Source of the DNA: an uncultured Bacteroidales bacterium
GTDB lineage: Bacteria; Bacteroidota; Bacteroidia; Bacteroidales; Coprobacteraceae
Direction of reading: 5' to 3'
Assembly (NCBI GenBank): GCA_949297285.1
Contig: CASFRL010000062.1
Span: 1 to 35,802 of the forward strand
Length of the DNA stretch: 35,802 nucleotides
Under the pieces are notes generated by a model, which saw only the letters and a list, made by a program, of their open reading frames with translations, was not told where the DNA came from and did no database searches. Below, one piece after another: positions 1 through 22,726 of the stretch. The stretch's first letter is position 1, and each line of letters opens with the position of its first letter. Position numbers and translations under genes: made by a program.

Positions 1-44
1 CGCCGATGGTACTGCGCAAAGTGGGAGAGTAGGTCGCCGCCACT
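1..44 (+). rRNA. rrf: 5S ribosomal RNA, 3' end (partial)
   Basis: The first ~44 bases match the conserved 3' part of bacterial 5S rRNA, including the GCCGATGGTACTGC segment and the closing GGGAGAGTAGGTCGCCGCC segment. The 5' two thirds lie outside the window. The exact 3' end is uncertain by a few bases. A rho-independent terminator follows within about 10 bp, as expected at the end of an rRNA operon, so an rrn operon presumably enters from the left on the plus strand. Confidence 0.9.
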
Positions 45-54
45 TTATATAGAG

Positions 55-106
55 ATCGAGGACAGTATAGGGTATAACACCCGGAAGGATTGTCCTCGAT
101 TTTTTT
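55..106 (+). terminator. Terminator of the rRNA operon
   Basis: The arms ATCGAGGACA (55-64) and TGTCCTCGAT (91-100) form a perfect 10-bp stem, followed at once by a run of six T. The 26-nt loop is long, but the stem plus T-run immediately after 5S rRNA makes a rho-independent terminator the clear reading. Confidence 0.85.
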
Positions 107-757
107 ATGTCCATTTTTACCCCTTTTTCCTTCCTCCATTCCTCTCTCTCACGCTCACAGGTCGGCCGCCAAATGCCGACACGCCACCGACAAACACACG
201 TTACCAACACAACACACGAAGAGAGAAACGGACACGGGGAACAACCCCTTTCCGCCTCATGCTTCGAAATGGCCCGTCCTACGCCCTCCTCGTCCTCAAA
301 AAAAAGATTTCTCTCCGACCATGATACACTCTTTTGCCCGTCGATATGAACTGAAATACTTATAGATAGAGCTATTATTGTGTTATCGTTTTTCTCCATG
401 TTTCATCTTTTAAATATATCAATTTGTTATTTCATCTGTTTTGAAATGGGTTTATCTTACAGTTTTTATCCCCTCCCTTATAAAAATGTCCTATAAGTCG
501 CAACAAAATGTCTAATTTGAATTTTTATAAAAAATTAGAATTAAATAATTTGCATTGCGATTTTTTATTGTGTTACTTTGAATGCTCATTCAGAGAACCC
601 CTCTTTTTGAAGTGTCCTATGTGTATGAATATGCAATGGAACGAGGTTCTATCGGGTATATTTACAGTATCTCAAACAAATTGTTTAAGATAGGTATTAT
701 GCCCCTTTTGTTGTTAGAGTATATAGTGAGAGGATAGAATAATAACTGATTAGGTAT
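107..757. other. Gene-free stretch between rRNA operon and nuoA
   Basis: I see no convincing gene here. Short open frames exist (for example 508-693, 61 codons) but have no recognisable domain and no supporting context. The first part, about 110-330, is unusually rich in C and A on the plus strand. The second part, about 360-757, is AT-rich like other intergenic DNA in the window and must hold the promoter of the nuo cluster. I could not find a clean TAnnTTTG box with a properly spaced -33 element, so the promoter is not placed. Confidence 0.5.
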
Positions 758-1108
758 ATGAATTTAGCATTATTTGTCGTTGTTTTTATTACCGGAATAG
801 CACTGGTTGTTGCAGCTATGACTATTGCCGGTTTGATTTCTCCGCGATCATTTAATCCTCAAAAAGGTGAAGCTTATGAGTGCGGTATCCCTACTCGGGG
901 AACTTCTTGGATGCAGTTTAAAGCAGGGTATTATCTTTTTGCAATTCTCTTTTTAATGTTCGATGTAGAAACCGTATTTCTGTTTCCGTGGGCAGTTATT
1001 GTTAGAGACTTGGGAGTTGCAGGATTGATGAGTATTTTATTTTTCTTGATAATACTTGCATTAGGCTTGGCTTATGCTTGGCGGAAAGGAGCTTTGGAAT
1101 GGAAGTGA
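758..1108 (+). CDS. nuoA: NADH-quinone oxidoreductase subunit A (NuoA)
   Basis: Small membrane subunit of respiratory complex I, 116 aa, the normal family length. Three transmembrane helices are visible at about residues 3-25, 60-80 and 88-108. The family loop between helices 1 and 2 is recognisable, with a YECG motif followed by the stretch leading to the [18 protein letters not shown] segment that is characteristic of NuoA/ND3. NuoA lies near the quinone cavity and couples the hydrophilic arm to the proton-pumping membrane arm. It is the first gene of the cluster, and its 3' end overlaps the preferred nuoB start by 10 nt. Confidence 0.97.
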
Positions 1109-1686
1109 AAATAAAATCGATGAAGTATGAAGACTTCAAAGACAATGAGTATATTGAACAATTGGTTAAAAAATTGCATGAAGGCGGTGTCAACGTGGTT
1201 GTCGGGAGCCTTGATGAAGCAATTAATTGGGGGCGATCCAATTCATTATGGCCCCTTACGTTTGCAACCAGCTGTTGTGGGATCGAATTTATGTCGTTGG
1301 GGGCAGCCCGTTACGACATGGCCCGTTTCGGCTTTGAGGTAGCTCGTGCCAGTCCTCGTCAAGCCGACTTTATCATGGTTGCCGGAACGATTGTTCATAA
1401 GATGGCTCCGGTTTTGAAGCGTCTGTATGATCAGATGGCAGAGCCGAAATATGTAATCGCTGTGGGTGGTTGTGCCGTTTCCGGAGGTCCGTTTAAGAAT
1501 TCATACCATGTTTTGAAAGGAGTCGAGGAAATTTTGCCGGTCGATGTTTACATACCCGGATGTCCTCCCAGACCTGAAGCCATGTTGTACGGTATGATGC
1601 AGTTACAGCGTAAAATAAAAGTCGAAAAATTCTTTGGTGGAGTAAACCGTCAGGAAAAGAAACCTAAAGATTTTGATGAAGAATAA
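1099..1686 (+). CDS. nuoB: NADH-quinone oxidoreductase subunit B (NuoB)
   Basis: Complex I subunit that binds the terminal iron-sulfur cluster N2, which passes electrons to quinone. The four expected 4Fe-4S ligands are seen with the start used here: the adjacent pair Cys59-Cys60 in TSCCGIEF, Cys125 in GGCAVSGG and Cys155 in PGCPPRPE. I chose ATG at 1099 (195 aa) rather than the upstream in-frame ATG at 1078, because a purine-rich GGAAAGGAG (1083-1091) lies at Shine-Dalgarno distance before 1099 and the upstream option would overlap nuoA by 31 nt. The length is slightly above the ~180-aa norm. Confidence 0.96.
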
Positions 1687-1705
1687 TGATAATTGAATTC
1701 GATTC

Positions 1706-3334
1706 ATGGGAAATATACAAGAAAAAATAAGTGCTTTTTTACCTGAGGCGGTTTTTGAAGAAGGTCAACACCTCACTGCTTTGGTCCCAGCCAATAAACT
1801 GAATGCACTATGTCGCTTTTTGCATGATGATAAAGATCTGCAATTTGATAATTTAGTCTCTCTGATCGGGATGGATTGGGGCGAAACTCTCGGTGTAGTG
1901 TATTACTTGAATTCAACCCAATATAACCATTGGGTGATTTTGAGAGTAGAGACTTCTGACAAAGAGAATCCTCTTCTGTATACGGTATCCGATATTTGGA
2001 AGAATGCCGAGTTGAATGAACGGGAAGTTTATGACTTTTTCGGTATTCGCTTTATCAATCATCCGGATATGCGGCATTTGTTTTTGCGTGAAGACTGGGT
2101 TGGATTCCCTTTCCGTAAAGATTATGATGCTGATCCGAAAATCAATCCTATTCCGACGGACAATGAATCTTCGAATATCGAAACTGTCTCTTTGCGAGAA
2201 GATGCAGAAGGTCGGGTTGTAGAAGAAAAACGGATGATCTTCAAAGAAGATGATTATATTGTAAATATCGGACCGCAGCATCCGGCAACGCATGGTGTTT
2301 TACGTTTTCAGACAGCATTGGACGGAGAGACAATAAAGAAAATCGATGTTCATTGTGGATATATCCATCGGGGAATTGAAAAAATGTGGGAAAGCATGAC
2401 CTATCCACAGACTCTCCATTTGACAGACCGTTTAGATTATCTTTCGGCCCATAACAATCGTCATGCGCTTTGTATGTGTATCGAAGAAGCGATGCAACTC
2501 GAAGTCCCTCAGCGGGCGGTATATATTCGTACGATGATGGATGAGCTGATGCGTGTGTCGTCTCATTTGCTGTTTTTTGCTACCATGTGTATGGACTTGG
2601 GGGCATTGACAGCATTTTTCTACGGATTTAGAGAACGTGAAAAAATCCTGGATATTTTTGAAGATACATGTGGAGCCCGTATGACTATGAATTATAATGT
2701 CATTGGTGGGGTTATCGCAGATATTCATCCCGATTTCCAACGTAAAGTAAAAGAGTTTATAAAAGAGATGCCGGGACGGCTTAAAGAATATCATGAAGTC
2801 TTTTCCGGAAATGTGATAGCACAAAACCGGCTGAAAGGCGTAGGTTTCTTGAGCCGTGAAGATGCAATCAATTATAGCGTGACGGGGCCTTCCGGTCGTG
2901 GATCGGGATGGGCATGTGACGTGCGGAAAAGATCTCCGTATGCGGCTTATGATAAGGTGCAGTTTGATGAAGTATTGTCTGACGAAGGCGATTCGTATGC
3001 CCGTTATATGGTGAGAATGAAAGAGATAGAACAGTCATTGCATATATTGGAGCAATTGGTAGATAACATTCCTGAAGGAGACTATCTGGCTAAGACAAAA
3101 CCGATAATTAAAGTTCCGGAAGGCCGTTACTTTAAAGAAGTTGAAGCAGCCCGTGGTGCTTTTGGCATTTATCTCGAAAGTCGAGGCGACAAATATCCGT
3201 ATCGGCTTAAAGTAAATTCTCCGGGATTCAATTTGGTTGGAGCTGTCGATCACATGACTCGCGGTTCTAAAATTGCCGATTTGATTGCTATCGGAGGATC
3301 GTTGGACTATGTCGTGCCCGATATTGACAGATAA
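1706..3334 (+). CDS. nuoCD: NADH-quinone oxidoreductase subunits C and D, fused (NuoCD)
   Basis: Peripheral-arm subunit of complex I, 542 aa, joining NuoC (about residues 1-145) and NuoD (about 180-542). The NuoC signature is clear around residues 104-140 (NEREVYDFFGI, NHPDMRHL, then FPFRKDY). NuoD begins with IGPQHPATHGVLR (188-200), the loop holding the conserved quinone-site His, followed by TDRLDYLS with the expected quinone-site Tyr. The domains are joined by a charged ~35-residue linker. C-D fusion is common in Bacteroidota and some Proteobacteria. In a standard operon nuoE, nuoF and nuoG would come next; here nuoH follows directly. Confidence 0.97.
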   Translation: MGNIQEKISAFLPEAVFEEGQHLTALVPANKLNALCRFLHDDKDLQFDNLVSLIGMDWGETLGVVYYLNSTQYNHWVILRVETSDKENPLLYTVSDIWKNAELNEREVYDFFGIRFINHPDMRHLFLREDWVGFPFRKDYDADPKINPIPTDNESSNIETVSLREDAEGRVVEEKRMIFKEDDYIVNIGPQHPATHGVLRFQTALDGETIKKIDVHCGYIHRGIEKMWESMTYPQTLHLTDRLDYLSAHNNRHALCMCIEEAMQLEVPQRAVYIRTMMDELMRVSSHLLFFATMCMDLGALTAFFYGFREREKILDIFEDTCGARMTMNYNVIGGVIADIHPDFQRKVKEFIKEMPGRLKEYHEVFSGNVIAQNRLKGVGFLSREDAINYSVTGPSGRGSGWACDVRKRSPYAAYDKVQFDEVLSDEGDSYARYMVRMKEIEQSLHILEQLVDNIPEGDYLAKTKPIIKVPEGRYFKEVEAARGAFGIYLESRGDKYPYRLKVNSPGFNLVGAVDHMTRGSKIADLIAIGGSLDYVVPDIDR

Positions 3335-3369
3335 ACCGAATTTATAAACTTATATAATTGAAATATATC

Positions 3370-4446
3370 ATGTTCGATTTTTCAGTAGTTACCCATTGGA
3401 TAGATACACTGCTACGGCAATGGCTGCCGGAGTGGGGAGCTCTCTTGATTGAATTTGTATTGGTAGGAGTGGTCTTACTTTTGCTTTATGCGGTTATTGC
3501 TTTGGTATTGATTTATGCCGAACGTAAAGTGTGCGCATTTTTTCAATGCCGTTTAGGACCTAACCGGGTAGGCCCTTACGGAATTTTCCAGAGTGTGGCC
3601 GATATGCTCAAAATACTTATTAAAGAGTTAATAGAAATTAAGCATATCGATCGGTTCCTATTCAATCTTGCTCCGTTTTTAGTGATTGTCTCATCGATGT
3701 TGGCTTTTGGTTGTATGCCTTTTGGAAAAGGATTGATTGCAATCGATTTTAATATCGGGGTGTTCTTTATCATGGCTGTTTCTTCGATCGGAGTATTGGG
3801 AATTTTACTGGCCGGATGGTCAAGTAATAATAAATTTACCTTGATCGGTGCTATGCGTAGTGGTGCGCAGATGATCAGTTATGAATTGTCCATAGGACTT
3901 TCGATGTTGACCGTAGTTGTATTTGCAGGAACGATGCAAACCTCCGGTATTATCGAAGCTCAGAACCGAGGCTGGTTTTTATTTACGGGACATATTCCCA
4001 TGCTGATAGCCTTTATTATTTATTTGATTGCCGGGACAGCAGAGACCAACCGTGGCCCGTTTGACTTGCCTGAAGCCGAATCGGAATTGACGGCCGGTTA
4101 CCATACCGAATATTCGGGAATTCATTTCGGCTTCTATTACTTGGCCGAATATCTGAATTTGTTTATTGTTTCCGGTATTGCCAGTTTACTGTTTTTAGGA
4201 GGTTGGATGCCTTTCCATATCGGTGGATGGGATGCTTTCAATCAGGTTATGGACTATATTCCTTCTGTAATCTGGTTTTTTGGAAAAACTGCGGTCGTAA
4301 TGTTCATTATCATGTGGTTTAAGTGGACATTCCCCCGGTTGCGTATCGACCAGTTGCTTCACCTTGAGTGGAAATACTTGGTACCAATAGGTTTGGTTAA
4401 TTTGATACTTATGACTTTGGTCGTTATGTTCGGCTGGCATTTCTAA
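3370..4446 (+). CDS. nuoH: NADH-quinone oxidoreductase subunit H (NuoH)
   Basis: Integral membrane subunit of complex I at the junction of the two arms, forming part of the quinone channel. About eight transmembrane helices are visible. Family motifs are the [20 protein letters not shown] segment and the [19 protein letters not shown] segment; the latter usually reads [16 protein letters not shown], so one Ala is Gly here. An open frame extends to a TTG at 3358, but ATG at 3370 (358 aa, [10 protein letters not shown]) is preferred. It is the last nuo gene before the cluster is interrupted by the ATP synthase genes, 45 bp downstream. Confidence 0.95.
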
Positions 4447-4462
4447 ATTAAGTAACGCTGCC

Positions 4463-4474
4463 GTTTATATAAAC
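4463..4474. repeat. 12-bp palindrome at the nuoH-atpD junction
   Basis: GTTTATATAAAC is a perfect palindrome in the 45-bp gap between nuoH and atpD. It has no T-run or GC-rich stem, so it does not look like a terminator. It could be an operator, part of an internal promoter, or chance in AT-rich DNA. Confidence 0.3.
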
Positions 4475-4488
4475 CGTTTAAAAGATGA

Positions 4489-6003
<1,515 letters not shown>

Positions 6004-6012
6004 GGATTAACT

Positions 6013-6246
6013 ATGAATCTTGAAATTATATCTTCAGAAGGAATCGTATTTCAGGGAGAAGTGAGTAAAGTAACTTTTCCGGGAACACTCGGTTCGTTCA
6101 CCGTATTGGAAGATCACGCATCTTTGCTTTCGACCTTGGTGGCGGGTGTAATAGAATATGAAACCGGCGGAGAGCTTAAAACCGTTACTATCGACGGAGG
6201 ATTTGTAGATGTAAACCATAACCGGATCGCTGTTTGCCTTCGTTAA
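6013..6246 (+). CDS. atpC: F1Fo ATP synthase subunit epsilon, short form (AtpC)
   Basis: Rotor-stalk subunit epsilon, only 77 aa. The whole chain matches the N-terminal beta-sandwich domain (SEGIVFQGEVSKVTFPGTLG, then DHASLLSTL, ending after the GGFVDV strand). The C-terminal two-helix domain of typical epsilon (about 130-140 aa), which can inhibit ATP hydrolysis in many bacteria, is absent. The stop at 6244-6246 is followed by a 47-bp gap to atpB, with no sign of a lost downstream domain in another frame. Short epsilon subunits are known in Bacteroidota and green sulfur bacteria. Confidence 0.93.
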   Translation: MNLEIISSEGIVFQGEVSKVTFPGTLGSFTVLEDHASLLSTLVAGVIEYETGGELKTVTIDGGFVDVNHNRIAVCLR

Positions 6247-6293
6247 GAGGTGCACGTGTTCGGGACAAGTTTATTGCAAAAAGAGAAAATAAA

Positions 6294-7364
6294 ATGAAGC
6301 ATACTTTAATATATTGGATGGGTTTATTCCTTTTTCTGATGATTCCTTTTACGGTATCTGCATCGGAAGAAGAAGAGCCGTTCAATGCTAAAGAGGCGAT
6401 TTTTGAGCACTTGCTCGATAATTACGGGTGGGAAATACCTTTCTCTCACAATCGTATGGCATTACCGGTGATTGTCCGTGATTATAAGGGTGATTGGTCG
6501 GTTTTCAGTTCGAAACGTCTGGAAAACAAAAATTCCTATAATGGATATTTTATCGCTCAAGATGGAGATTATAAGGGAAAAATCGTAGGTCTTGATGCTG
6601 CAGGAAAAGAATATCGTCCGATCGATATATCGATTACAAAAAATGTAATGGCGCTTTTCATAACAGCGTTAGTGATGTTTTTGTTATTTTTCCCATTGTC
6701 CCGATGGTATAAAAAACATCCTTATAAGGCTCCGCGCCGTTGGTTAGGGGCAATAGAGGTTGTCGTAGATATGATTTATAAAGATATGATCAAGCCTATT
6801 TTGGGGAAAGATGCTCGTTTTTTTGCCCCTTATTTGCTGACACTCTTTTTCTTTATACTTTGTATCAATGTCTTGGGAATGATTGTCATATTCCCGGGAG
6901 GTGCTAATTTGTCTGGAAATATTTCGATTACTATGGTGTTGGCCATTTGTACGTTTTTGGCCGTTAATCTTTTTGGAACAAAGCATTATTGGAAAGATTT
7001 GTTCTGGCCTGAAGTACCGATGTGGATGAAATGTCCGATACCCTTGATGCCTGTTATCGAAATATTCGGAGTATTTACAAAACCGGTTGCGTTGATGATT
7101 CGTTTGTTTGCCAATATGTTGGGGGGTCATCTTATCGTGTTGGTTTTGATTTCGCTCATTTTTATATTTGGAACCATGGGGGCTGCAGTCTTAGCGGGGA
7201 CAACAGTTTTATCTGTCGCTTTTTCCCTGTTTATGAACATATTGCATCTCCTTATCTGTTTTATTCAAGCTTATGTCTTCACCATGTTGTCTACCATATT
7301 TATCAGTTTGGCACGCGTAAGCGGTGAAGAAAAAAATAATAACGAAAAAGAAATAAATGTATAA
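6294..7364 (+). CDS. atpB: F1Fo ATP synthase subunit a (AtpB)
   Basis: Membrane stator subunit a, which forms the ion half-channels. ATG at 6294 (356 aa) is preferred over 6234, because it begins a credible signal peptide or first helix (MKHTLIYWMGLFLFLMIPFTVSA) and does not run back into atpC. The essential stator Arg is Arg270 in KPVALMIRLFANMLGGH. An extracytoplasmic region of about 100 residues (22-115) precedes the family core; such long N-terminal regions are usual in Bacteroidota-type AtpB. No atpI-like gene lies between atpC and atpB. Confidence 0.95.
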   Translation: MKHTLIYWMGLFLFLMIPFTVSASEEEEPFNAKEAIFEHLLDNYGWEIPFSHNRMALPVIVRDYKGDWSVFSSKRLENKNSYNGYFIAQDGDYKGKIVGLDAAGKEYRPIDISITKNVMALFITALVMFLLFFPLSRWYKKHPYKAPRRWLGAIEVVVDMIYKDMIKPILGKDARFFAPYLLTLFFFILCINVLGMIVIFPGGANLSGNISITMVLAICTFLAVNLFGTKHYWKDLFWPEVPMWMKCPIPLMPVIEIFGVFTKPVALMIRLFANMLGGHLIVLVLISLIFIFGTMGAAVLAGTTVLSVAFSLFMNILHLLICFIQAYVFTMLSTIFISLARVSGEEKNNNEKEINV

Positions 7365-7376
7365 CTTAAAAATTAG

Positions 7377-7637
<261 letters not shown>

Positions 7638-7643
7638 TAAGTT

Positions 7644-8141
7644 ATGGAACTGTTTAAGCCTGAATTTGGGCTGGTGTTCTGGATGTTTTTTGTAATGGTG
7701 GTAATTTTTGCCATACTTGCAAAATACGCTTGGCCTTATATCATTCGCAGTATCGACAATCGTGCCGATCTCATCGATAAAGGCGTAGAATATGCGCAAG
7801 ATGCAAAAACCCAGTTAGATGAAGCAGCCAAGAATGCACAAGCCCTATTGGCAGAGGCGCAACGTCAACAGATGGATATTCTTCGGGAAGCCGCCCAAAT
7901 GAAGTCTCAGATTATAGAAGAGGCAAAAAAGGCTGCTTCTGTAGAGGCCAAGAAGGTGATGGACGCTGCTGCTCTTTCGATCGAGCAAGCTCGAAAAGAG
8001 TCAGAACAACAGTTCCGTACCGAAGTCAGTGCATTTGCTTTACAAATTGCTGAGAAATTGATGCGGAAAGAGTTGTCGAATGATAAGACTCAGATTGAGA
8101 TGATCGACAAACTGCTGAATGATATTGAGAACAAAAACTAA
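7644..8141 (+). CDS. atpF: F1Fo ATP synthase subunit b (AtpF)
   Basis: Peripheral stalk subunit b, 165 aa. One N-terminal transmembrane helix (about residues 8-30) is followed by a long charged helix rich in Ala, Glu, Lys and Gln (about 35-160). This is the usual architecture that dimerises and connects subunit a to delta and F1. There is a 6-bp gap on each side, to atpE and atpH, typical of the atp block. Confidence 0.95.
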   Translation: MELFKPEFGLVFWMFFVMVVIFAILAKYAWPYIIRSIDNRADLIDKGVEYAQDAKTQLDEAAKNAQALLAEAQRQQMDILREAAQMKSQIIEEAKKAASVEAKKVMDAAALSIEQARKESEQQFRTEVSAFALQIAEKLMRKELSNDKTQIEMIDKLLNDIENKN

Positions 8142-8147
8142 AAGGAC

Positions 8148-8699
8148 ATGGACGAAGGGCTGATTTCACGTAGATATGCTAAGGCCTTGCTCAAGTTTGC
8201 ACAGGAACGAGGTACTACAGACCATATATATGAGGTGGTAAAAAAGTTTGAAGAAAACTTTGTTTCTCATCCTGAATTGCAGAAGGCGATGTTGAATCCG
8301 GTACTTTCTGCAAAGGATAAAGAGAATCTCCTTATTGCCGCCGTCGGGACGGATGCGGGAGTAGATTACCTTCGTTTTGTTCGTTTAGTAATCCATAATC
8401 GGCGTGAATCATATATTCGCCAGATTTGCCTGATGTATCAGGAACTTTATCGAGAGTTGAAACAAATCGCTCAGGTACGTATTATTACGGCTATGGAGTT
8501 GAATAAAGAGACAATCGATAAAATAAAGTCTCTTATTTTGCAGAAAGCAAACCATGAGATCGAGTTTGTCTATGAGATCGATCCTTCTATTATCGGAGGG
8601 TTTATCGTGCGGGTTGACTCGATGCAGTTGGATGCTTCTGTAAGTAGGGAACTTAAATTATTGCGTTTAAAATTACTAAGCAGCAAAAAGCAATTATGA
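8148..8699 (+). CDS. atpH: F1Fo ATP synthase subunit delta (AtpH)
   Basis: Stator subunit delta (OSCP type), 183 aa, which joins the peripheral stalk to the top of F1. The N-terminal helical domain starts with [16 protein letters not shown], the family's opening pattern. The C-terminal part carries the conserved [18 protein letters not shown] segment (about residues 148-165). Its stop overlaps the atpA start (ATGA, 8696-8699), which suggests coupled translation. Confidence 0.95.
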
Positions 8700-10273
8700 T
8701 AAAACCAAACGAGATATCCGATATTTTGAAACAACAACTTGAAGAGGTCGATACTAAAATCGACTTTGAAGAAGTTGGTACTGTCCTTGAAGTGGGCGAT
8801 GGTGTTGCCCATGTATTCGGGTTAGATAATGTTCGCTCAAGCGAGTTGATCGAGTTTGAAAACGGCGTGCGTGGTGTAGCGATGAACCTTGAAGAAAGTA
8901 ACGTGGGAGTAATCCTTATGGGGGCTACAAACAAGGTGAAGGAGAACATGACGGTGCGTCGTACGGGAGAGATCGCATCTATTCCTGTGGGTGAAGGTTT
9001 GTTGGGGCGTGTCATTAATACATTGGGAGAACCGATTGATGGAGCCGGGCCAATTGAAGGAGAGACCGTCTTGTTGCCCCTTGATCGTAAAGCTCCGGGT
9101 GTAATTTTCCGCCAACCCGTGACTCAACCTTTGCAAACGGGAATTAAAGCTATCGACTCTATGGTCCCTATCGGACGCGGTCAACGGGAGCTGATTATCG
9201 GTGACCGGCAGACCGGAAAAACTTCGATTGCCGTCGATACGATTTTGAACCAACGCGATAATTATTTAGCCGGTGATCCTGTATATTGCATTTATGTAGC
9301 CATCGGCCAAAAAGCATCCTCTGTTGCTTCTTTGGTCAATACATTGCGTGAACATGGTGCATTGGAATATACAATCGTACTCGCCGCGAATGCATCCGAC
9401 TCTGCCTCGATGAGATATTATGCTCCTTTTGCCGGTGCTACTATTGGAGAATTTTTCAGAGATAGCGGACGTCATGCATTGGTTGTTTATGATGATTTGT
9501 CTAAGCAAGCCGTTGCTTATCGTGAAATATCTTTGATTTTGCGTCGTCCTTCAGGACGTGAAGCTTATCCGGGTGATATATTCTATTTGCACTCTCGTTT
9601 ATTGGAACGTGCTGCAAAAATTATTGCAAACGATAAAGTGGCCGAAACCATGAACGATTTGCCTGCGGTTCTCAAACCAATGGTAAAAGGTGGAGGATCG
9701 TTGACGGCTTTGCCTATTATTGAAACTCAGGCCGGAGACGTTTCTGCTTATATCCCTACAAATGTAATTTCGATTACCGATGGTCAAATCTTCCTCGAAA
9801 CAGGGTTGTTTAATCAAGGAATGCGTCCTGCCATCAATGTCGGGATATCCGTATCTCGTGTGGGAGGAAATGCTCAAGTGAAAGCAATGAAAAAAGTTGC
9901 GGGAACCTTGAAAATCGACCAAGCTCAGTACCGGGAATTAGAGTCGTTCTCTAAGTTCGGAGGCGATCTTGACCCTGTTACCGAAATGGTGATCGACAAA
10001 GGACGTAAGAACAGTATGATCCTTGTTCAGCCACAATATTCTCCAATGCGGGTAGAAGAGGAAATCGCTATAATTTATTGTGGTACGAAAGGTCTGTTGA
10101 GAAATGTCCCATTGGATAAAGTTGCAGAATTTGAGAAAGTATTTTTACAAATACTGAGAACAAAATATAAGACAGAAGTTTTAGATGAACTTCGTGCCGG
10201 CAAATTGACCGAAGATATTGAAAAATGTCTTCAGCGTGTTGCCGCTGATGTCACAAACCGATTTAAGGCTTAG
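8696..10273 (+). CDS. atpA: F1Fo ATP synthase subunit alpha (AtpA)
   Basis: Non-catalytic nucleotide-binding alpha subunit of F1, 525 aa. The Walker A loop GDRQTGKT is at residues 169-176. The strongly conserved [12 protein letters not shown] segment supplies the arginine finger to the beta active site. The N-terminal barrel and the C-terminal helical domain are both complete. The gene overlaps atpH by 4 nt and is followed after 5 bp by atpG. Confidence 0.98.
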
Positions 10274-10278
10274 GTATT

Positions 10279-11163
10279 ATGTCAACAATGCGCGAATTGA
10301 AGGGAAGAATCGGATCTGTCCAGTCTTCCCAAAAAATTACCAGTGCTATGAAGATGATCTCTTCGGCAAAATTGCGAAAAGCAGAGTCTGCTTTGAAACG
10401 CATTGTGCCGTTTCGGGATCAGATACAAAGTACGATTAATAATTTGCTGGGAGCCGATAGTGACTATCAATCGCCGTTGACCGAACAACGTCCCGTTCAA
10501 CGGGTTGCCTTTGTCATTTTCGGTTCTGATGAGGGTCTTTGTGGAGCATTCAATATCCAACTTTACAAGGCTTTTACCGATTCTATCGATGCTCTGCGTG
10601 AGTCGTCGACTTCCCCGATAGAGATAACGGTGTATCCGGTCGGGGGGAAAATTAAATCTTTAGTTGCAAAAACTCCGGGTATAAAAGTTCGTCCGGTAGA
10701 GTATGTCTCTTCGAAAAGTTCTCCTGAAACATTGAAGCAATTTTCCGATGAGTTGACAACGGCTTTTCTTTCCCAAGAGTTCGACCGTATAGAGATTGTA
10801 TATGCATACTATAAAAGTGTAGCTTCGCAATTGGCGAAAACACGACAACTTCTTCCGATAAGTACCGATGAGTTCTTGTCCGATGCAAAAACATATCGGA
10901 ATACTCCTTATATTTATGAACCAGACCGTTCTACGATATTTGAGTTGGTACTTCCGCTCTTTGTGCGTTCAACATTGCAAGAGTCTTGTTATCAGAGTCG
11001 GACCTCGGAACAAGCTGCCCGTATTATGGCAATGCAAATGGCAAGCGATAACGCCAAGAATTTATTGGAAGACTTACAGCTTGAATACAATAAGTTGCGG
11101 CAGCAAGGTATTACGACCGAACTACTGGATATTTTGGGTGGAACAGTTAAGGATAATGAGTAG
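10279..11163 (+). CDS. atpG: F1Fo ATP synthase subunit gamma (AtpG)
   Basis: Central rotor shaft of F1, 294 aa. The N-terminal helix carries the family pattern RELKGRIGSVQSSQKITSAM and the C-terminal helix carries ASDNAKNLLEDLQLEYNKLR; these form the coiled coil inside the alpha-beta ring. The central Rossmann-like part includes GSDEGLCGAFN. It is the last gene of the embedded atp block. The 53-bp gap to nuoI shows no hairpin with a T-run. Confidence 0.96.
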   Translation: MSTMRELKGRIGSVQSSQKITSAMKMISSAKLRKAESALKRIVPFRDQIQSTINNLLGADSDYQSPLTEQRPVQRVAFVIFGSDEGLCGAFNIQLYKAFTDSIDALRESSTSPIEITVYPVGGKIKSLVAKTPGIKVRPVEYVSSKSSPETLKQFSDELTTAFLSQEFDRIEIVYAYYKSVASQLAKTRQLLPISTDEFLSDAKTYRNTPYIYEPDRSTIFELVLPLFVRSTLQESCYQSRTSEQAARIMAMQMASDNAKNLLEDLQLEYNKLRQQGITTELLDILGGTVKDNE

Positions 11164-11216
11164 TCGAATAAAAGAAAAAGTAAGATTCAAAAAAATATAG
11201 TTGCGAAAACATAGAA

Positions 11217-11687
11217 ATGGAAAGTTTTAAAAATTACATCACTTCTTTCTGGAAAGGCTTGTGGAGCCTATTGGTCGGGATGAAAGTAACGGGGAAAGAA
11301 TTTATAACCCCTAAAGTAACCGAGCAATATCCGGAAAACAGAAAGACTTTAAAAATTGCCGATCGTTTTAGGGGAACATTGACCCTGATAGAAGATGAGA
11401 ACGGAAATAACAGGTGTGTCGCTTGCGGCATCTGCCAGTTGAATTGTCCGAATGGGACGATCAAGGTTCTTTCCTCTAAAGTAACGACCGAAGATGGCAA
11501 AACCAAACGAGTGTTAGATAAATATATGTATGATTTGGGAAGTTGTACGTTCTGTCAGTTATGCGTGATAACCTGCCCTCACGATGCATTGAAGTTTGTT
11601 CCCGATTTCGAACATGCTGTCTTTACCCGTGGGAAATTGGTAAAACAACTTAATCATACTACGGAAGCAACTGTAGAAAACAAATAG
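11217..11687 (+). CDS. nuoI: NADH-quinone oxidoreductase subunit I (NuoI)
   Basis: Ferredoxin-like complex I subunit, 156 aa, binding two 4Fe-4S clusters (N6a and N6b) that lead electrons to NuoB. Both cysteine sets are complete: Cys67, 70, 73 and 77 in CVACGICQLNCP, and Cys110, 113, 116 and 120 in CTFCQLCVITCP. With NuoE, NuoF and NuoG missing, NuoI is a plausible entry point for electrons from a soluble donor such as reduced ferredoxin; that donor is an inference. The gene resumes the nuo order after the atp block. Confidence 0.96.
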   Translation: MESFKNYITSFWKGLWSLLVGMKVTGKEFITPKVTEQYPENRKTLKIADRFRGTLTLIEDENGNNRCVACGICQLNCPNGTIKVLSSKVTTEDGKTKRVLDKYMYDLGSCTFCQLCVITCPHDALKFVPDFEHAVFTRGKLVKQLNHTTEATVENK

Positions 11688-11693
11688 TTTATT

Positions 11694-12206
11694 ATGGAAC
11701 AAATAGCGAATCAAATTATCTTTTATTTGTTGGCGGCGGTTATTGTCATATTCTCTGTCCTTACTGTGACAACGCGTCGTATTCTGCGGGCAGCGACATA
11801 CCTCCTTTTTGTGTTGTTTGCTACTGCCGGCCTTTATTTTCAACTCGATTATCATTTCCTCGGTGCAGTGCAAATAGCTATTTATGCCGGTGGTATTGTC
11901 GTGTTGTTTGTTTTCTCTATTTTATTGACCAGCGGTTTAGGAGAGAAAGCTGAAAAATTGACCAGTAAGAAAAAGTTTTGGGGAATCTTGGCCTCTGTTA
12001 TAGGTGCCGTAGTTTGCGGATATGCATTGGTGACACACGTTTTCACTCCGTCCAATTTCCAAAATTTTTCAGAATTGGATATGAAAACGGTAGGCCATGC
12101 CTTGATGGGAATGGAAAAATACCAATATATATTGCCTTTTGAGGTAATCAGTGTGTTATTATTAGCTTGTATAATCGGAGGCATTATGATTGCCCGAAAA
12201 AGATAA
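11694..12206 (+). CDS. nuoJ: NADH-quinone oxidoreductase subunit J (NuoJ)
   Basis: Membrane subunit of complex I, 170 aa, with five predicted transmembrane helices. The conserved helix-3 region that forms the pi-bulge in the family is seen as GAVQIAIYAGGIVVLFVF (about residues 57-74). The start is ATG at 11694, 6 bp after nuoI, and nuoK follows after 5 bp. Length is within the family range. Confidence 0.95.
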   Translation: MEQIANQIIFYLLAAVIVIFSVLTVTTRRILRAATYLLFVLFATAGLYFQLDYHFLGAVQIAIYAGGIVVLFVFSILLTSGLGEKAEKLTSKKKFWGILASVIGAVVCGYALVTHVFTPSNFQNFSELDMKTVGHALMGMEKYQYILPFEVISVLLLACIIGGIMIARKR

Positions 12207-12211
12207 AATGT

Positions 12212-12523
12212 ATGGAGATCCCTATGATTGCTTATCTGATGGTGAGTACCATCATGTTTTTTGCCGGAGTTTACGGCTTTATTACCCGTAGGAATATGCT
12301 GGCAATACTTATTTCGCTGGAGCTGATGCTCAACTCGGTGGATATAAATTTTGTGGTGTTTAACCGCTATCTTTTCCCACAACAACTGGAAGGTTTCTTC
12401 TTTACCCTTTTTGCCGTGGGAATTGCTGCGGCTGAGACTGCAATAGCCATTGCGATTATTATAAATATCTACCGGAATATTCGGAATATTCAGGTGGGAA
12501 ATCTGGATAAGATGAAATATTGA
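12212..12523 (+). CDS. nuoK: NADH-quinone oxidoreductase subunit K (NuoK)
   Basis: Small MrpC-like membrane subunit of complex I, 103 aa with the start used here, the usual length being about 100. Three transmembrane helices are present. The two membrane glutamates of the proton path are seen in SLELMLNSVDINF (helix 2) and AAAETAIAIAI (helix 3). An open frame extends upstream to 12167 inside nuoJ, but ATG at 12212 gives MEIPMIAYLMVS, matching the family's short N-terminus. ATG at 12224 is a second possibility. Confidence 0.94.
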   Translation: MEIPMIAYLMVSTIMFFAGVYGFITRRNMLAILISLELMLNSVDINFVVFNRYLFPQQLEGFFFTLFAVGIAAAETAIAIAIIINIYRNIRNIQVGNLDKMKY

Positions 12524-12545
12524 TCATAGCTTTAAACAACGAATT

Positions 12546-14441
12546 ATGGAATATTCATTGATTATACTTTTGTTACCGCTCTTTATGTTCCTTCTATTAG
12601 GGCTTTGCGGTCATAAGATGTCGCACCGTATAGCCGGTTTGCTGGGAACTACCGGATTATTCATTGTGACTGTATTGGCTTATACCGTCACATTTCAGTA
12701 TTTTTCTTTACCACGTGTCGATGGTGTGTATCAAACATTAATTCCTTTCAATGTAGAATGGTTGCATTTCACGGAACATCTGCATATCAGTTTGGGAATA
12801 TTGCTCGACCCTATCTCTGTCATGATGCTGGTTGTCATCACCACAGTCTCTCTTATGGTGCACATATACAGTATCGGGTATATGCATGGTGAAGTAGGAT
12901 TTCAACGCTATTTTGCGTTTTTGTCGTTATTTACTTTCTCGATGCTGGGTTTGGTCGTTGCAACCAATATTTTCCAAATGTATATTTTCTGGGAGTTGGT
13001 GGGAGTTTCCTCCTATTTGCTGATTGGCTTCTATTACACCAAGGCTGCAGCGGTTTCAGCTTCTAAGAAAGCATTTATCGTAACGCGTTTTGCCGATCTC
13101 GGTTTCTTGATCGGAATACTGATACTTTCGTTCTATACCGAGACCTTCGATTTTAAAACCCTGACCGATGGTAGTGTATCGATTCTCTCTTCTACGGGAG
13201 GGAAAACATTCCTCGGATTCTCTATCGCATCTTGGGCAATGGCTCTCATCTTTATGGGAGGTGCCGGAAAATCGGCCATGTTCCCATTGCATATATGGTT
13301 ACCGGATGCCATGGAAGGTCCGACACCTGTCTCTGCATTGATACATGCTGCGACAATGGTTGTTGCCGGTGTTTATTTGGTAGCGCGTTTGTTCCCGGTC
13401 TATTGCATGACTCCCGAAGTGCTCGACCTGATAACCTATGTCGGTGCGTTTACCGCTTTATATGCCGCTGTGGTAGCGTGTGTACAAACCGATATAAAAC
13501 GGGTCTTAGCCTTTTCGACTATATCCCAGATAGCCTTTATGATGGTTTCCCTTGGAGTCGCAAGCGAAACTATGGGATTGGGTTATATGGCCTCCATGTT
13601 CCATTTGTTTACGCATGCCATGTTCAAGGCTTTGCTTTTCTTGGGAGCCGGAGCTATTATTCATGCCGTTCACTCGAACGAGATGTCGCAGATGGGAGGC
13701 CTTCGCAAATATATGCCGGTGACACACATCACATTCTTGATTGCTTGTTTGGCTATTGCCGGTATCCCTCCGTTCTCAGGATTTTTCAGTAAAGATGAAA
13801 TTCTGGCAGCCGTATTCGAAAAGAGCCTTTTCTGGGGAATCTGGATGGCTGTCGTAGCCGGACTGACAGCATTCTATATGTTCCGGTTGTTCTATAACAT
13901 TTTCTGGGGAAAAGAAGCCGAGCATGAACACACTCCGCATGAAGCGCCCAAAGTCATGTATATACCGTTGGTATTTTTAGCTTTGGTAACATGTGTCGCC
14001 GGATTTATTCCTTTCGGAGAATTCGTAACGAGCGATGGACTTCCGTACCATATTCATATAGATATGTCGGTTGCTATAACCAGTGTTCTCATTGCCCTTG
14101 TCGGTATTGCATTGGCAACATGGTTGTATAAAACACCGAATGATAAGCCCGCCCGTATGGCAACTTCGATGAGCAGCCTCCACAAATGGGCATATCACCG
14201 TTTTTATATCGACGAGATTTATCAATTTATTACCCATAAGATTATTTTCAATCATATATGTTCTCCGATTGCGTGGTTCGATCGTCATGTTATCGACGGA
14301 AGCATGAATATGTTGGCTTGGATAACCCAAACGACATCTTATCATATCCGCGGATTACAGTCGGGACGTTTGCAATCTTATGCAGTGGTATTTATTTTAG
14401 GTGCGATGATCATTGCCATTATAGCAGTAATATGCTTGTAG
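12546..14441 (+). CDS. nuoL: NADH-quinone oxidoreductase subunit L (NuoL)
   Basis: Distal antiporter-like proton-pumping subunit of complex I, 631 aa with about 16 membrane helices. Key segments are FWELVGVSSYLLIGFYYT (conserved Glu in the FWE pattern), AGKSAMFPLHIWLPDAMEGP (conserved Lys and the broken-helix region) and HAATMVVAGVYLV. The C-terminal part (about 480-631) includes the stretch expected for the long lateral helix and the terminal anchor helix. It is followed by nuoM after 35 bp, in the standard L-M-N order. Confidence 0.96.
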   Translation: MEYSLIILLLPLFMFLLLGLCGHKMSHRIAGLLGTTGLFIVTVLAYTVTFQYFSLPRVDGVYQTLIPFNVEWLHFTEHLHISLGILLDPISVMMLVVITTVSLMVHIYSIGYMHGEVGFQRYFAFLSLFTFSMLGLVVATNIFQMYIFWELVGVSSYLLIGFYYTKAAAVSASKKAFIVTRFADLGFLIGILILSFYTETFDFKTLTDGSVSILSSTGGKTFLGFSIASWAMALIFMGGAGKSAMFPLHIWLPDAMEGPTPVSALIHAATMVVAGVYLVARLFPVYCMTPEVLDLITYVGAFTALYAAVVACVQTDIKRVLAFSTISQIAFMMVSLGVASETMGLGYMASMFHLFTHAMFKALLFLGAGAIIHAVHSNEMSQMGGLRKYMPVTHITFLIACLAIAGIPPFSGFFSKDEILAAVFEKSLFWGIWMAVVAGLTAFYMFRLFYNIFWGKEAEHEHTPHEAPKVMYIPLVFLALVTCVAGFIPFGEFVTSDGLPYHIHIDMSVAITSVLIALVGIALATWLYKTPNDKPARMATSMSSLHKWAYHRFYIDEIYQFITHKIIFNHICSPIAWFDRHVIDGSMNMLAWITQTTSYHIRGLQSGRLQSYAVVFILGAMIIAIIAVICL

Positions 14442-14476
14442 AGAATGGTTGAAGGATATTTATAAAAAGAATTACT

Positions 14477-15976
14477 ATGAATTTTTTATCTTTATTTGTA
14501 CTTATTCCTCTTTTGATGATGCTCGGATTGGCCTTGTCGAAAGATATGAAACAAATACGGTTGGTTGCCGTAACCGGTTCAACCATTCAATTATTATTGG
14601 CAATCGGTTTGGTGGCGCTCTACCTATTTGAGCGTTCTGCCGGGAATACCGCTGAAATGTTGTTTATTGCCGATACCGTTTGGTATGCTCCTTTGAATAT
14701 TCATTATACAGTCGGTGTTGATGGCGTTTCGGTAGCGATGATCTTGCTTTCTGCGATTATCGTGTTTGCCGGAGTTTTTGCTTCTTGGAAAATAGAACCT
14801 CTTCCCAAAGAATTTTTCCTTTGGTTGATTCTGTTGTCGATCGGCGTGTTCGGGTTTTTCATTTCGATCAACTTGTTCACAATGTTTATGTATTACGAAA
14901 TCGCATTGATCCCGATGTATTTATTGATCGGTGTCTGGGGAAGTGGAAATAAAAACTATGCGGCAATGAAACTTACCTTGATGTTGATGGGTGGATCTGC
15001 TTTGTTGCTTGTCGGCATATTGGGAATTTATTTCCATTCGTCGGCAGACGGCCATTTGACGATGAACATTTTAGAGATTGCAAAAAACAATGCAATCCCG
15101 ATGAGCGCTCAATATCTCTTTTTCCCGTTGACATTTGTCGGGTTTGGCGTTTTGGGGGCGATGTTCCCGTTCCACACATGGTCTCCCGACGGTCATGCTT
15201 CTGCTCCGACGGCTGTGTCTATGCTGCATGCCGGGGTATTGATGAAATTGGGAGGATACGGATGTTTTAGAGTAGCCATGTATCTGATGCCTCAAGCTAC
15301 ACAAGAACTTTCTTGGATATTCTTGATACTGACAGGTATCAGTGTCGTTTACGGAGCATTCAGCGCATGCGTACAAAAAGATTTGAAATATATCAATGCT
15401 TACTCTTCGGTAAGCCATTGCGGTTTGGTATTGTTCGCCTTGTTGATGTGGAATACCACGGCGATGACCGGTGCCGTATTGCAAATGTTGTCTCATGGTT
15501 TAATGACAGCTCTTTTCTTTGCTTTGATCGGTATGATTTATGGACGTACCCATACCCGTGATATTCGCGAAATGGGCGGACTTATGAAGATCATGCCTTT
15601 CTTGTCGGTTTGTTACGTGATTGCCGGTTTGGCATCTCTGGGACTTCCGGGATTGAGCGGTTTCGTTGCCGAGATGACCGTATTTGTAGGTGCTTTCCAA
15701 TGGTCAGATACATTCCACAGAGTCTTTACGATCGTTGCTTGTACCTCGATTGTAATTACCGCAGTGTATATTCTTCGAGTAGTCGGGAAACTGCTTTACG
15801 GTAAAGTAGAAAATGAGCATCATTTGTCGCTCACCGATGCTACCTGGTTCGAACGGCTATCGGCAATATCATTGATCGTTTCGGTCGCAGCTTTGGGTAT
15901 CGCTCCTTCTTGGGTGTCGAATATGCTCAGCAACAGTATGGAAGTAATTAGTCAACGCATTTTACAATATATCTAA
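14477..15976 (+). CDS. nuoM: NADH-quinone oxidoreductase subunit M (NuoM)
   Basis: Central antiporter-like proton-pumping subunit of complex I, 499 aa, about 14 transmembrane helices. The conserved helix-5 Glu lies in FMYYEIALIPMYLLIGVWG. The broken-helix region is seen in FPFHTWSPDGHASAPTAVSM, and the family run HAGVLMKLGGYG follows directly. The length is normal. It is separated from nuoN by 10 bp. Confidence 0.96.
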   Translation: MNFLSLFVLIPLLMMLGLALSKDMKQIRLVAVTGSTIQLLLAIGLVALYLFERSAGNTAEMLFIADTVWYAPLNIHYTVGVDGVSVAMILLSAIIVFAGVFASWKIEPLPKEFFLWLILLSIGVFGFFISINLFTMFMYYEIALIPMYLLIGVWGSGNKNYAAMKLTLMLMGGSALLLVGILGIYFHSSADGHLTMNILEIAKNNAIPMSAQYLFFPLTFVGFGVLGAMFPFHTWSPDGHASAPTAVSMLHAGVLMKLGGYGCFRVAMYLMPQATQELSWIFLILTGISVVYGAFSACVQKDLKYINAYSSVSHCGLVLFALLMWNTTAMTGAVLQMLSHGLMTALFFALIGMIYGRTHTRDIREMGGLMKIMPFLSVCYVIAGLASLGLPGLSGFVAEMTVFVGAFQWSDTFHRVFTIVACTSIVITAVYILRVVGKLLYGKVENEHHLSLTDATWFERLSAISLIVSVAALGIAPSWVSNMLSNSMEVISQRILQYI

Positions 15977-15986
15977 TAGAAAGAGT

Positions 15987-17423
15987 ATGGATTATTCAAA
16001 TTTTTTAGGAATGCGGGATGAACTATCATTGTTGGTAGTCATCGTACTCCTGTTTTTATATGATACATTCGGATCGGCAAAAAGCCTGAAAAGCTTCTCG
16101 GCTACGGCTTGTATTTTATTGCTGGCTCATACGATATTTACCTTTATCCCGAGAGAAACAGTCTCTCTTTTCGGGGGTATGTACCAATCGGGTCCGGCTA
16201 CATCGGTAATAAAAACCATACTCAATATCGGAACGTTGCTCGTTTTGATACAAGCTTCGTCTTGGATTAAGAATGAGGATGTCGTTATTCGGCGGGGAGA
16301 GTATTACGTGCTTACCCTTATTACGCTTCTGGGTATGTATTTGATGACCGCATCGGGAAATTTCCTGATGTTCTTCCTCGGACTTGAAACGGCGTCTTTA
16401 CCCATTACGGCATTGATAGCTATGGAAAAGTACAAACACGACTCTCATGAGGCCGCAGCCAAATACGTATTTATTGCCGTATTCTCATCAGCCTTGATGT
16501 TGTTGGGTATATCTTATCTCTATGGTATCGGCGGAACTCTTTATTTTGATGATTTGAGCTATATGCTTACCGTATCGCCTCTGCTTATTGTAGGGCTGGT
16601 ATTCTTTATCTCCGGATTAGGTTTCAAATTGTCTTTGGTTCCGTTCCATTTATGGACCGCCGATGTTTACCAGGGAGCTCCTACTTCGATAACGGCCTAT
16701 CTGTCGGTAATCTCCAAAGGCGCTGCTGCATTTACCTTTATGATGATTCTATATAAGGTATTCGGTCCGGTCGAACAAATTTGGCAAGGCATTTTATATG
16801 CGTTGATTATTCTGACGATTACGGTCGGTAACTTGTTTGCCATCCGTCAGCAGAACTTGAAGCGATTCCTTGCATTCTCTTCTATTTCGCAAGCCGGTTA
16901 TATCATGTTGGGAGTTATATCGAATACCCCCGTAGGATTAGCCTCGTTAAGCTATTATGTTTTGGTTTATATTTTCTCTAATCTGGCTGCTTTCGGTGTG
17001 ATATCGGTTATCGAAAACCGTACGGGGAAAGTGAATATCGATGATTATAACGGACTTTATAAAACCAATCCGAAGTTGAGTATTGCAATGATGCTGGCAA
17101 TGTTCTCATTAGCCGGAATTCCTCCGTTTGCAGGCTTTTTCAGCAAGTTCTTCATATTCTATGTTGCAGCCGAACAAGGCTTCTACATTCTTGTGTTGAT
17201 CGCCCTTATTAATACCGTTATTTCGTTGTATTACTATTTGCTGGTTGTTAAAGCCATGTTTATAAAACAAGACGAGTGCTTAATTGAGAACTTCCGTTCC
17301 GACAATGCTTCGCGTCTGAGTATTTCGCTTTGCGTCTTAGGTATTGTCGTAATCGGGTTGATCAGCGGAATATATGACCAGATATTTGAATATACTTATT
17401 CTCATTTGATATTTAATATTTAA
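15987..17423 (+). CDS. nuoN: NADH-quinone oxidoreductase subunit N (NuoN)
   Basis: Third antiporter-like pumping subunit of complex I, 478 aa, about 14 transmembrane helices. The helix-5 region FLGLETASLPITALIAM carries the conserved Glu. The KLSLVPFHLWTADVYQGAPT segment carries the mid-membrane Lys region, and the later AGIPPFAGFFSKFFIF motif is typical. It is the last gene of the cluster; a strong terminator starts 24 bp downstream. Confidence 0.96.
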   Translation: MDYSNFLGMRDELSLLVVIVLLFLYDTFGSAKSLKSFSATACILLLAHTIFTFIPRETVSLFGGMYQSGPATSVIKTILNIGTLLVLIQASSWIKNEDVVIRRGEYYVLTLITLLGMYLMTASGNFLMFFLGLETASLPITALIAMEKYKHDSHEAAAKYVFIAVFSSALMLLGISYLYGIGGTLYFDDLSYMLTVSPLLIVGLVFFISGLGFKLSLVPFHLWTADVYQGAPTSITAYLSVISKGAAAFTFMMILYKVFGPVEQIWQGILYALIILTITVGNLFAIRQQNLKRFLAFSSISQAGYIMLGVISNTPVGLASLSYYVLVYIFSNLAAFGVISVIENRTGKVNIDDYNGLYKTNPKLSIAMMLAMFSLAGIPPFAGFFSKFFIFYVAAEQGFYILVLIALINTVISLYYYLLVVKAMFIKQDECLIENFRSDNASRLSISLCVLGIVVIGLISGIYDQIFEYTYSHLIFNI

Positions 17424-17447
17424 AAGAGAGCAGGTATTATAAAGACA

Positions 17448-17486
17448 AGCGCTTCCGATAATCACTTACCGGAAGCGCTCTTTTTA
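17448..17486 (+). terminator. Terminator after nuoN
   Basis: The arms AGCGCTTCCG (17448-17457) and CGGAAGCGCT (17470-17479) form a perfect GC-rich 10-bp stem with a 12-nt loop, followed by CTTTTTAT. This is a typical rho-independent terminator and closes the nuo-atp cluster. Confidence 0.92.
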
Positions 17487-18022
17487 TGCAGAAAGGATAA
17501 GAGACCCTTCATCTCGGTATCGGGGCGAAGGGCCTTTTATAATTGTACATTATTTATGGCAAAATAAGCGAGATCCGGTATCTGATGCCGGCAAAAAGCC
17601 TATAAAGATAATTTTGCCATGCCCGATCTTGCCGGATGACGCTCTTATATTAACCATAGAACATCTCAAAAGTAGTAAAATGTGCAATAAAACAACGATA
17701 AAGTTGTCTTATTGTTTCAATATTTTATTGTTCTGTGATATTTTGTTTGTTTATGTTGTTATTTTACTGCAATATGTTTTTATATTTTCCGATTTTTGTA
17801 TCATATTGTAATTTTTATAATGATAAAAAATGATAATATAGAAACAATAATAGTTGTAAGACTATATACGATATGTCATATAAGAAAGGATAAAGAATAT
17901 AGCGATAGAGGAGAATAGTCAAATTTTCTTTTTGCCAGTTCTATTTCTCTTGAGATGTCTCTTTTTAACTCTATTTATTTATAATATACTTCCCATTTAA
18001 CATTTGAATGTTCTTTTTGTCG
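17487..18022. other. Intergenic stretch between nuoN and the YugP-type peptidase gene
   Basis: No convincing gene is seen. A weak second hairpin (CCCTTC 17505-17510 with GAAGGG 17527-17532, then CCTTTTAT) may back up the nuo terminator. A perfect 10-bp inverted repeat with nested smaller repeats follows at 17556-17620. From about 17680 to 18000 the DNA is very AT-rich and featureless. A 65-codon open frame at 17614 is in low-complexity AT-rich DNA and is not accepted. Confidence 0.5.
17556..17620. repeat. Inverted repeat with nested inner repeats
   Basis: ATGGCAAAAT (17556-17565) and ATTTTGCCAT (17611-17620) are perfect 10-bp reverse complements. The 45-nt loop holds CCGG (17575-17578) pairing with CCGG (17588-17591). 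A further pair, ATCCGG at 17573-17578 and CCGGAT at 17632-17637, overlaps it. There is no T-run, so it is not an ordinary terminator. It could be a structured RNA element or a remnant of a repeat. Confidence 0.4.
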
Positions 18023-18030
18023 TATATTTG
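18003..18030 (+). promoter_or_regulatory. Bacteroidota-type promoter before the YugP-type peptidase gene
   Basis: TATATTTG at 18023-18030 is a full match to the Bacteroidota -7 box TAnnTTTG. A TTTG at 18003-18006 lies 16 bp upstream, a little closer than usual for the -33 element. It places transcription start near 18037, about 18 nt before the ATG at 18055. This also argues against the longer open frame starting at 18004. Confidence 0.6.
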
Positions 18031-18054
18031 TCTCAAACAATAAGCGTAAAATAT

Positions 18055-18735: not shown

Positions 18736-18772
18736 CTTTAGCTTTTTATATATTTTCTTTGAATAAATAAAG

Positions 18773-22714: not shown

Positions 22715-22726
22715 AACTAACGTTGT

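Follow-up and report, generated by a model that had tools for sequence, protein, structure and literature searches.

In the Bacteroidales, an F-type ATP synthase integrated within the complex I locus has been reported for 26 genomes of the S24-7 group ('Ca. Homeothermaceae'), with the available portion of that account further recording an 11-subunit complex I that lacks NuoEFG, the presence of Nqr in 27 genomes, and Barnesiella and Coprobacter as the closest relatives (Ormerod et al. 2016, PMC4936053). A headless complex I, i.e., one without nuoEFG, is also known from Bacteroides fragilis, in which, according to the sections of the report at hand, NADH oxidation is due to Nqr and Ndh2 and the headless complex makes no contribution to NADH:quinone oxidoreductase activity (mBio 2020, PMC7002350). 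Here we analyze a 35,802-nucleotide (nt) stretch of DNA (hereafter the window), which is one whole contig (CASFRL010000062.1; C62 in our labeling) of a 2.89-Mb, 157-contig Coprobacter genome that is 89% complete and in which a whole atp operon interrupts the nuo operon between nuoH and nuoI. An earlier note on the window had taken nuo and atp to be normally separate operons, a statement that is incomplete in view of the 26 published S24-7 genomes; the arrangement, having been described for that neighboring family, is not new in itself. Its exact endpoints, its probable single origin, and the candidate RNA element that we describe at one of its boundaries in relatives were not met in the literature searched.

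Open reading frame (ORF) calls combined with profile matches (Pfam and NCBIfam/TIGRFAM-type models) for all 18 genes bear out the gene content, the order, and the single strand that the earlier note had read from positions 758 to 17423. The run nuoA-B-CD-H (758 to 4446) is followed by atpD-C-B-E-F-H-A-G (4492 to 11163) and then by nuoI-J-K-L-M-N (11217 to 17423), and the junctions of 45 nt (nuoH-atpD) and 53 nt (atpG-nuoI), hereafter the seams, are as it had given them (Table 1). The atp genes thereby lie within the nuo run, as in the S24-7-type integration. For atpB, the ATG at 6294, which opens a signal-peptide-like start, is likelier than the TTG at 6234, which overlaps atpC.

The distribution of this gene order was surveyed across the Bacteroidales with an even draw of 159 genomes (labels beginning with G, L, and f denote the genomes, loci, and families of our sample). 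Sixty of these had a NuoI match at E<1e-34, and the gene order around NuoI, read in all 60, shows the insert in 11 and nuoH adjoining nuoI in 49 (computed gap of ≤476 nt). In the 11 carriers, which belong to families f1, f22, f26, f29, f68, f88, and f109, atpDCBEFHAG lies between nuoH and nuoI. Within f26 (the family of G142), NuoI was found in 58 of 59 genomes; 55 of these have atpG ahead of nuoI, and three are cut by contig ends. The whole run from nuoH through atp to nuoI is present in 29 further f26 loci. Family f109 (that of G112) has the atpG-nuoI seam in 9/9 genomes, and Coprobacter is consistent with the insert in 5/5, with the locus of one genome divided between two contigs. Where it is readable, the atpG-nuoI junction is found in 75/75 genomes of the seven families (including two genomes each from f22 and f29 and one each from f68 and f88), and 42 of these 75 (13 + 29) give an unbroken reading from nuoH to nuoI. 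A phylum-wide draw of 128 genomes contained NuoI at E≤1e-22 in 10, that of the window included, and nuoH adjoins nuoI in the other nine; a NuoI-alignment scan of the contigs of named genomes yielded three loci, two from Coprobacter and one unrelated. We take S24-7 to be the group now called Muribaculaceae, and f26 is likely this family, as judged from the 30 genera drawn and the published statement on S24-7.

Phylogenetic analysis recovers the carriers as one lineage from both sides of the seams. The tree built from seven Nuo proteins has 59 tips (L042, L053, and L058, all non-carriers with short loci lacking genes, are omitted) and groups the 13 carriers in one exclusive clade with a FastTree local support of 1.0; the tree built from six Atp proteins, with 26 tips, does the same with a local support of 0.997. 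The suggestion that the order may mark a lineage is upheld by the gene-order comparison and by the single clade of the 13 carriers in both trees. Because of this concordance, the likeliest explanation is a single en bloc relocation of the native operon: a complete atpDCBEFHAG operon would have moved once into a headless complex I operon, at its nuoH-nuoI boundary. The move would date to an ancestor shared by at least seven Bacteroidales families, which would have inherited the arrangement since. We consider this history, together with the joint production of the two complexes proposed below, to be quite probable. Exactly one AtpG copy was found in each of the 13 carriers tested, and among 17 non-carriers, 12 have one copy and G072 has two. 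A free-standing atpDCBEFHAG operon occurs in six of the 13 non-carriers whose atp locus was examined (L074 and L077 to L081). In G109, the non-carrier closest to the carriers in the atp tree, the atp and nuo operons face each other on one contig at a distance of 11.4 kb (C8, 26123 to 54156; L074, L075, and L023), which may hint at how the two came to be joined. The other 12 non-carriers have them on different contigs, apart from G136, in which 1.67 Mb lies between them. As the carrier clade sits beside G109, which has the same atp gene order, horizontal acquisition of the atp operon is not favored.

Repeated, independent insertion at one boundary in different families would be easier to entertain given that not every family of the order was sampled densely and that G109 has the two operons in proximity without insertion; set against the identical boundary in all carriers and the clustering of the 13 carriers without any non-carrier inside in either tree, we regard it as very unlikely. 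The possibility that the assembly joined two distant operons, which the earlier note had named as a potential refutation, comes to mind because the assembly is in 157 contigs, of which the window is one. The congener G001, held in one 3.44-Mb contig, has nuoH, atpG, and nuoI spaced as in the window, so that the arrangement is not a misjoin. Congeners G002 and G004 have the three genes at matching spacing, G003 is consistent with it, though split over two contigs, G217 (three contigs) has the same gene order, and the single-contig genome G226 has the atpG-nuoI seam. The long contigs of relatives carrying the same order leave practically no room for an assembly artifact.

The genes around the atp operon encode what appears to be a complex I without its NADH module. 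Profile matches recover NuoA, NuoB, NuoC/D, and NuoH to NuoN, i.e., the full gene set of a headless 11-subunit complex. The NuoF domain PF10589 was not found in the genome of the window (0/1) versus 7 of 14 control genomes positive, E. coli among them, in a search that did not separately cover NuoE and NuoG. The complex is, as far as this search covers, of the headless form, and it agrees with that of B. fragilis in the missing NuoF domain and in the presence of NqrA in the same genome. The nuoEFG genes usually lie between nuoCD and nuoH. The distance from nuoH to the best match for nuoCD, measured in the window and in 62 loci (of which L008 and L013 are one and the same), is ≤545 nt, too short for three genes. 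The idea that the break falls where nuoE-F-G rearrange is not supported: the break is at nuoH-nuoI, which, given the usual gene order, is not their place.

The F-type ATP synthase is represented by genes for its alpha, beta, gamma, delta, epsilon, a, b, and c subunits. The Na+ ligand set of c subunits consists of a Q in helix 1 and E-S-T..Y in helix 2; because the AtpE translation lacks this set when judged by eye, the enzyme is predicted to be H+ coupled. As a separate observation, AtpC is short, at 77 amino acids (aa), and its match is confined to the N-terminal part of the epsilon profile; the C-terminal helical domain seems to be missing. In other bacteria, this domain is inhibitory.

Within the window, the seams offer no visible obstacle to transcription. 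A scan of positions 1 to 19000 for terminator-like sites found none in the nuoH-atpD or atpG-nuoI seam, its overall yield of 20 against 17.1 ± 4.1 expected being at chance level, and neither seam folds better than its shuffled versions (nuoH-atpD, −0.9, 190/200 shuffles as good; atpG-nuoI, −0.4, 137/200 as good). The segment from 17436 to 17500, just past nuoN, forms a strong hairpin (−21.7 kcal/mol; z of −5.4; 0/200 shuffles as good). Since both seams are without a terminator-like site or significant fold and a hairpin follows nuoN, a single 16.7-kb transcript from nuoA to nuoN is possible. Such a transcript would start upstream of nuoA, read through both plain seams, and end at this hairpin, so that in this genome the predicted H+-type ATP synthase would be made together with the headless complex I, which is predicted to pump protons. 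Internal promoters are not suggested by matches to the Bacteroidetes-type consensus TTG-N18-22-TAnnTTTG: perfect matches within 130 nt upstream of the gene occur in 1/42 loci for atpD (the window only; 0.3 expected) and in 1/42 for nuoI, versus 2/14 for nuoA (0.05 expected).

Several points weigh against a single relocation followed by joint production. Families f22, f29, f68, and f88, four of the seven with carriers, are represented by one or two genomes each; no AtpG was matched in 4 of the 17 non-carriers; and 6 of the 13 non-carrier atp loci, the more distant ones, are atpBEFHAG without adjoining atpD and atpC, with one more cut by a contig end. With the genome 89% complete, the apparent lack of NuoF is provisional and comes from a search for that one domain, and the H+ specificity of the c ring is a prediction read from sequence through a motif. 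Of the two internal promoter matches, that of the window, TTG-N21-TAGGTTTG, is at 4364 to 4395, inside the end of nuoH and 104 nt upstream of atpD, and the other lies 16 nt before nuoI in L157 (0.05 expected).

Hairpins are present at the atpG-nuoI seam of a number of relatives, and it is the only boundary of the 13 carriers at which strong ones recur. Among these 13, a hairpin of ≤−12 kcal/mol occurs there in five, versus none of the 13 at nuoH-atpD (lowest, −6.3), a comparison in which the atpG-nuoI gap is longer than the other boundaries and length alone favors lower fold energies. Loci with such seam hairpins include L008, L009, L016, and L020, with weaker ones in L018 (−6.5) and L019 (−6.1), and L024 is the sole locus of the 13 with strong hairpins at other boundaries (atpD-atpC and atpE-atpF, with a weaker one at nuoM-nuoN). 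In f109, a hairpin of ≤−11.9 kcal/mol (best 44-nt window) directly follows atpG in 8/9 genomes, and by eye, at least four T's follow the stem in 5/9. Of the f26 seams, 28 were scanned for energy and 25 more were read as sequence; the scanned set includes 11 at ≤−9.8 and 7 at ≤−12 kcal/mol, both cut-offs having been set after the values were seen. The seam is plain in the window, G001, both f29 genomes, both first-draw f26 genomes, and many other f26 genomes. For some members of the clade, these patterns make it likely that transcription is terminated or attenuated between atp and the distal nuo genes, an argument against one transcript holding the ratio constant. The fixed pump-to-synthase ratio that the earlier note had proposed appears unlikely in general. 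In relatives, a hairpin or a pseudoknot (see below) at this seam may instead adjust how much of the distal nuoI-N is made compared with atp.

The same hairpins are what would be expected if the insert were a neutral relic, with atp having landed once, its removal being liable to break nuo, and nuoA-H, atp, and nuoI-N each being transcribed and regulated separately. To the extent that 8/9 f109 genomes, L008, L009, L016, L020, and the 11/28 f26 loci end the atp run in a hairpin, this explanation gains, and it loses where the seam is plain (as in many f26 genomes, the f29 pair, the window, and G001), at nuoH-atpD, which is devoid of a strong hairpin in 13/13 loci, and in the scarcity of promoter matches ahead of atpD and nuoI. 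On balance, we think it rather unlikely and prefer an inherited block from which the pump and the synthase would be made together.

In f26, the space between atpG and nuoI additionally holds a predicted pseudoknot. We scored 62 seams (53 from f26 and nine from f109, the first-draw seams being outside this set) and obtained a score of ≥18 in 12. Eleven of these, i.e., 11 of the 53 scored f26 genomes, have a hairpin whose loop, AUACCG (once AUGCCU), is matched by an exact downstream complement in a CGGUAU-type arm that lies 24 to 52 nt before the nuoI ATG (L088, L089, L091, L092, L099, L100, L102, L116, L139, L143, and L146). The twelfth, L110, forms only a simple hairpin and is not counted among them. 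Shuffling gave P values of 0.005 to 0.025 for the 11 (200 shuffles each; floor, 0.005). Their hairpin stems diverge widely in sequence with pairing kept, and the loop helix changes on both sides in L143, from ATACCG/CGGTAT to ATGCCT/AGGCAT; this covariation was read from the pairings of single seams, L089 and L143 having been misaligned by MAFFT. In the f26 tree, the pseudoknot carriers are spread over deep branches and are missing from the largest subclade. The element looks to have been ancestral to f26 and then lost in the largest branch.

On both strands of 12 loci (467,352 nt), the pseudoknot scan returned 154 matches at a score of ≥20, and a TACCG-type loop pairing is present in seven of them, six at seams and one behind nuoN of G204, where a further copy of the loop/arm pairing forms the terminator-like hairpin right after the gene (L155, about 15870 to 15940, reverse complement); two further ATGCC-type rows looked unrelated. 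No [AT]TACCG-type pseudoknot was found in the 65 other loci scanned (L023 to L087, with L024 and L026 included again). Genome-wide, the pattern ATACCG-N25-55-CGGTAT, a crude one that makes for a weak test, is more frequent than its reversed control in four genomes (that of the window, 24 versus 6; G185, 11 versus 2; G112, 16 versus 14; G181, 5 versus 4) and less frequent in nine, the set of 13 being the 11 pseudoknot carriers, G112, and the genome of the window. Rfam has no match at E≤1 to the pseudoknot in the 11 carrier loci. A search of 10 relatives gave nothing at E≤1, and a second one with L139, L143, L146, L008, and L016 returned only two weak matches, to animal families and far under the gathering scores, one falling on the seam hairpin of L008 and neither at a pseudoknot. 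The atpG-nuoI seam of the window has neither hairpin nor pseudoknot. We tentatively propose, at somewhat less than even confidence, that the f26 element is an undescribed cis-acting RNA that meters the distal half of complex I per ATP synthase. If this is true, the nested operon would be a tunable energy-coupling unit, not a fixed-ratio one.

The remainder of the window contains several unrelated features. Its first 45 positions look like the 3' end of a 5S ribosomal RNA (rRNA) gene, on the basis of a weak, truncated, and sub-threshold Rfam match at the window edge, and a terminator-like hairpin seen by eye at 59 to 108 comes just after this apparent end. In G001, 23S and 5S rRNA genes are directly upstream of nuoA (L007, 17985 to 18095 and 18184 to 19901), and no rRNA was found in the stretch examined of L008, L009, and L010. 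Three adjoining genes at 20768 to 25406, coding for a glycogen debranching enzyme, a group 1 glycosyltransferase, and a GH57 family protein, likely constitute a glycogen cluster, and 25608 to 27329 codes for a C10-family peptidase with a Spi-type inhibitor domain.

Table 1. Genes, seams, and likely terminator of the nested nuo-atp operon in the window
Feature	Position	Strand	Basis and remarks
nuoA	758..1108	+	PF00507, E 1e-36; NCBIfam NuoA models under their cut-offs
nuoB	1078..1686	+	NF011391, 390 bits, above cut-off; TTG start per ORF tool, start uncertain
nuoCD fusion	1706..3334	+	PF00329 and PF00346
nuoH	3358..4446	+	PF00146, E 8e-119; TTG start per ORF tool
Seam 1, nuoH-atpD	4447..4491	+	45 nt; without hairpin
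atpD (beta)	4492..6003	+	TIGR01039, 763 bits, above cut-off
atpC (epsilon), 77 aa	6013..6246	+	TIGR01216, 67.4 bits versus cut-off of 67.25; profile positions 2-76 of 130 only
atpB (a subunit)	6294..7364	+	PF00119, E 1e-56; likely start ATG 6294
atpE (c subunit)	7383..7637	+	TIGR01260, above cut-off; sole PF00137 match in genome
atpF (b subunit)	7644..8141	+	TIGR01144, above cut-off
atpH (delta)	8148..8699	+	TIGR01145, above cut-off
atpA (alpha)	8696..10273	+	PF00006, PF00306, PF02874
atpG (gamma)	10279..11163	+	PF00231, E 5e-81
Seam 2, atpG-nuoI	11164..11216	+	53 nt; without hairpin in window, hairpin here in many relatives
nuoI, two 4Fe-4S motifs	11217..11687	+	PF00037, PF12838; alignment
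nuoJ	11694..12206	+	PF00499
nuoK	12212..12523	+	PF00420; ATG 12212 used, ORF tool start 12167; translation
nuoL	12546..14441	+	PF00361, PF00662
nuoM	14477..15976	+	PF00361; place in gene order
nuoN	15987..17423	+	PF00361; place in gene order
Likely terminator after nuoN (GC-rich hairpin, then TTTTT)	17447..17485	+	Sequence; fold of 17436-17500

The analysis traces an oddity that had been reported but little pursued to a probable single event in evolution whose endpoints are known exactly, and the insert provides a clean genomic marker for a Bacteroidales clade. It also raises the testable question of whether joining the genes of a proton pump and a proton-driven synthase changes their expression ratio, for the setting of which the putative seam RNA of relatives is a concrete candidate. 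In the open-access literature searched (titles and abstract openings), no description of the arrangement besides that of Ormerod et al. 2016 was found, nor, in the open-access literature searched, one of a structured RNA element at the nuoI seam.

Prevotella bryantii resembles the window in combining an 11-subunit NDH-I without NuoEFG with a proton-driven ATP synthase and differs from it in that no atp insertion is described in the available part of the report (PMC6560451). The B. fragilis nuo operon is a run of ten locus tags, BF638R_0850 to BF638R_0841, with no atp genes mentioned inside it in the sections at hand, unlike the window (PMC7002350). The S24-7 locus has both the atp-in-nuo integration and the headless complex I in common with the window; the exact insertion point, the seams, and the spread outside S24-7 are not given in the available portion of that account, whereas the present analysis supplies the endpoints, the seams, the spread over seven families, and trees consistent with one origin (PMC4936053).

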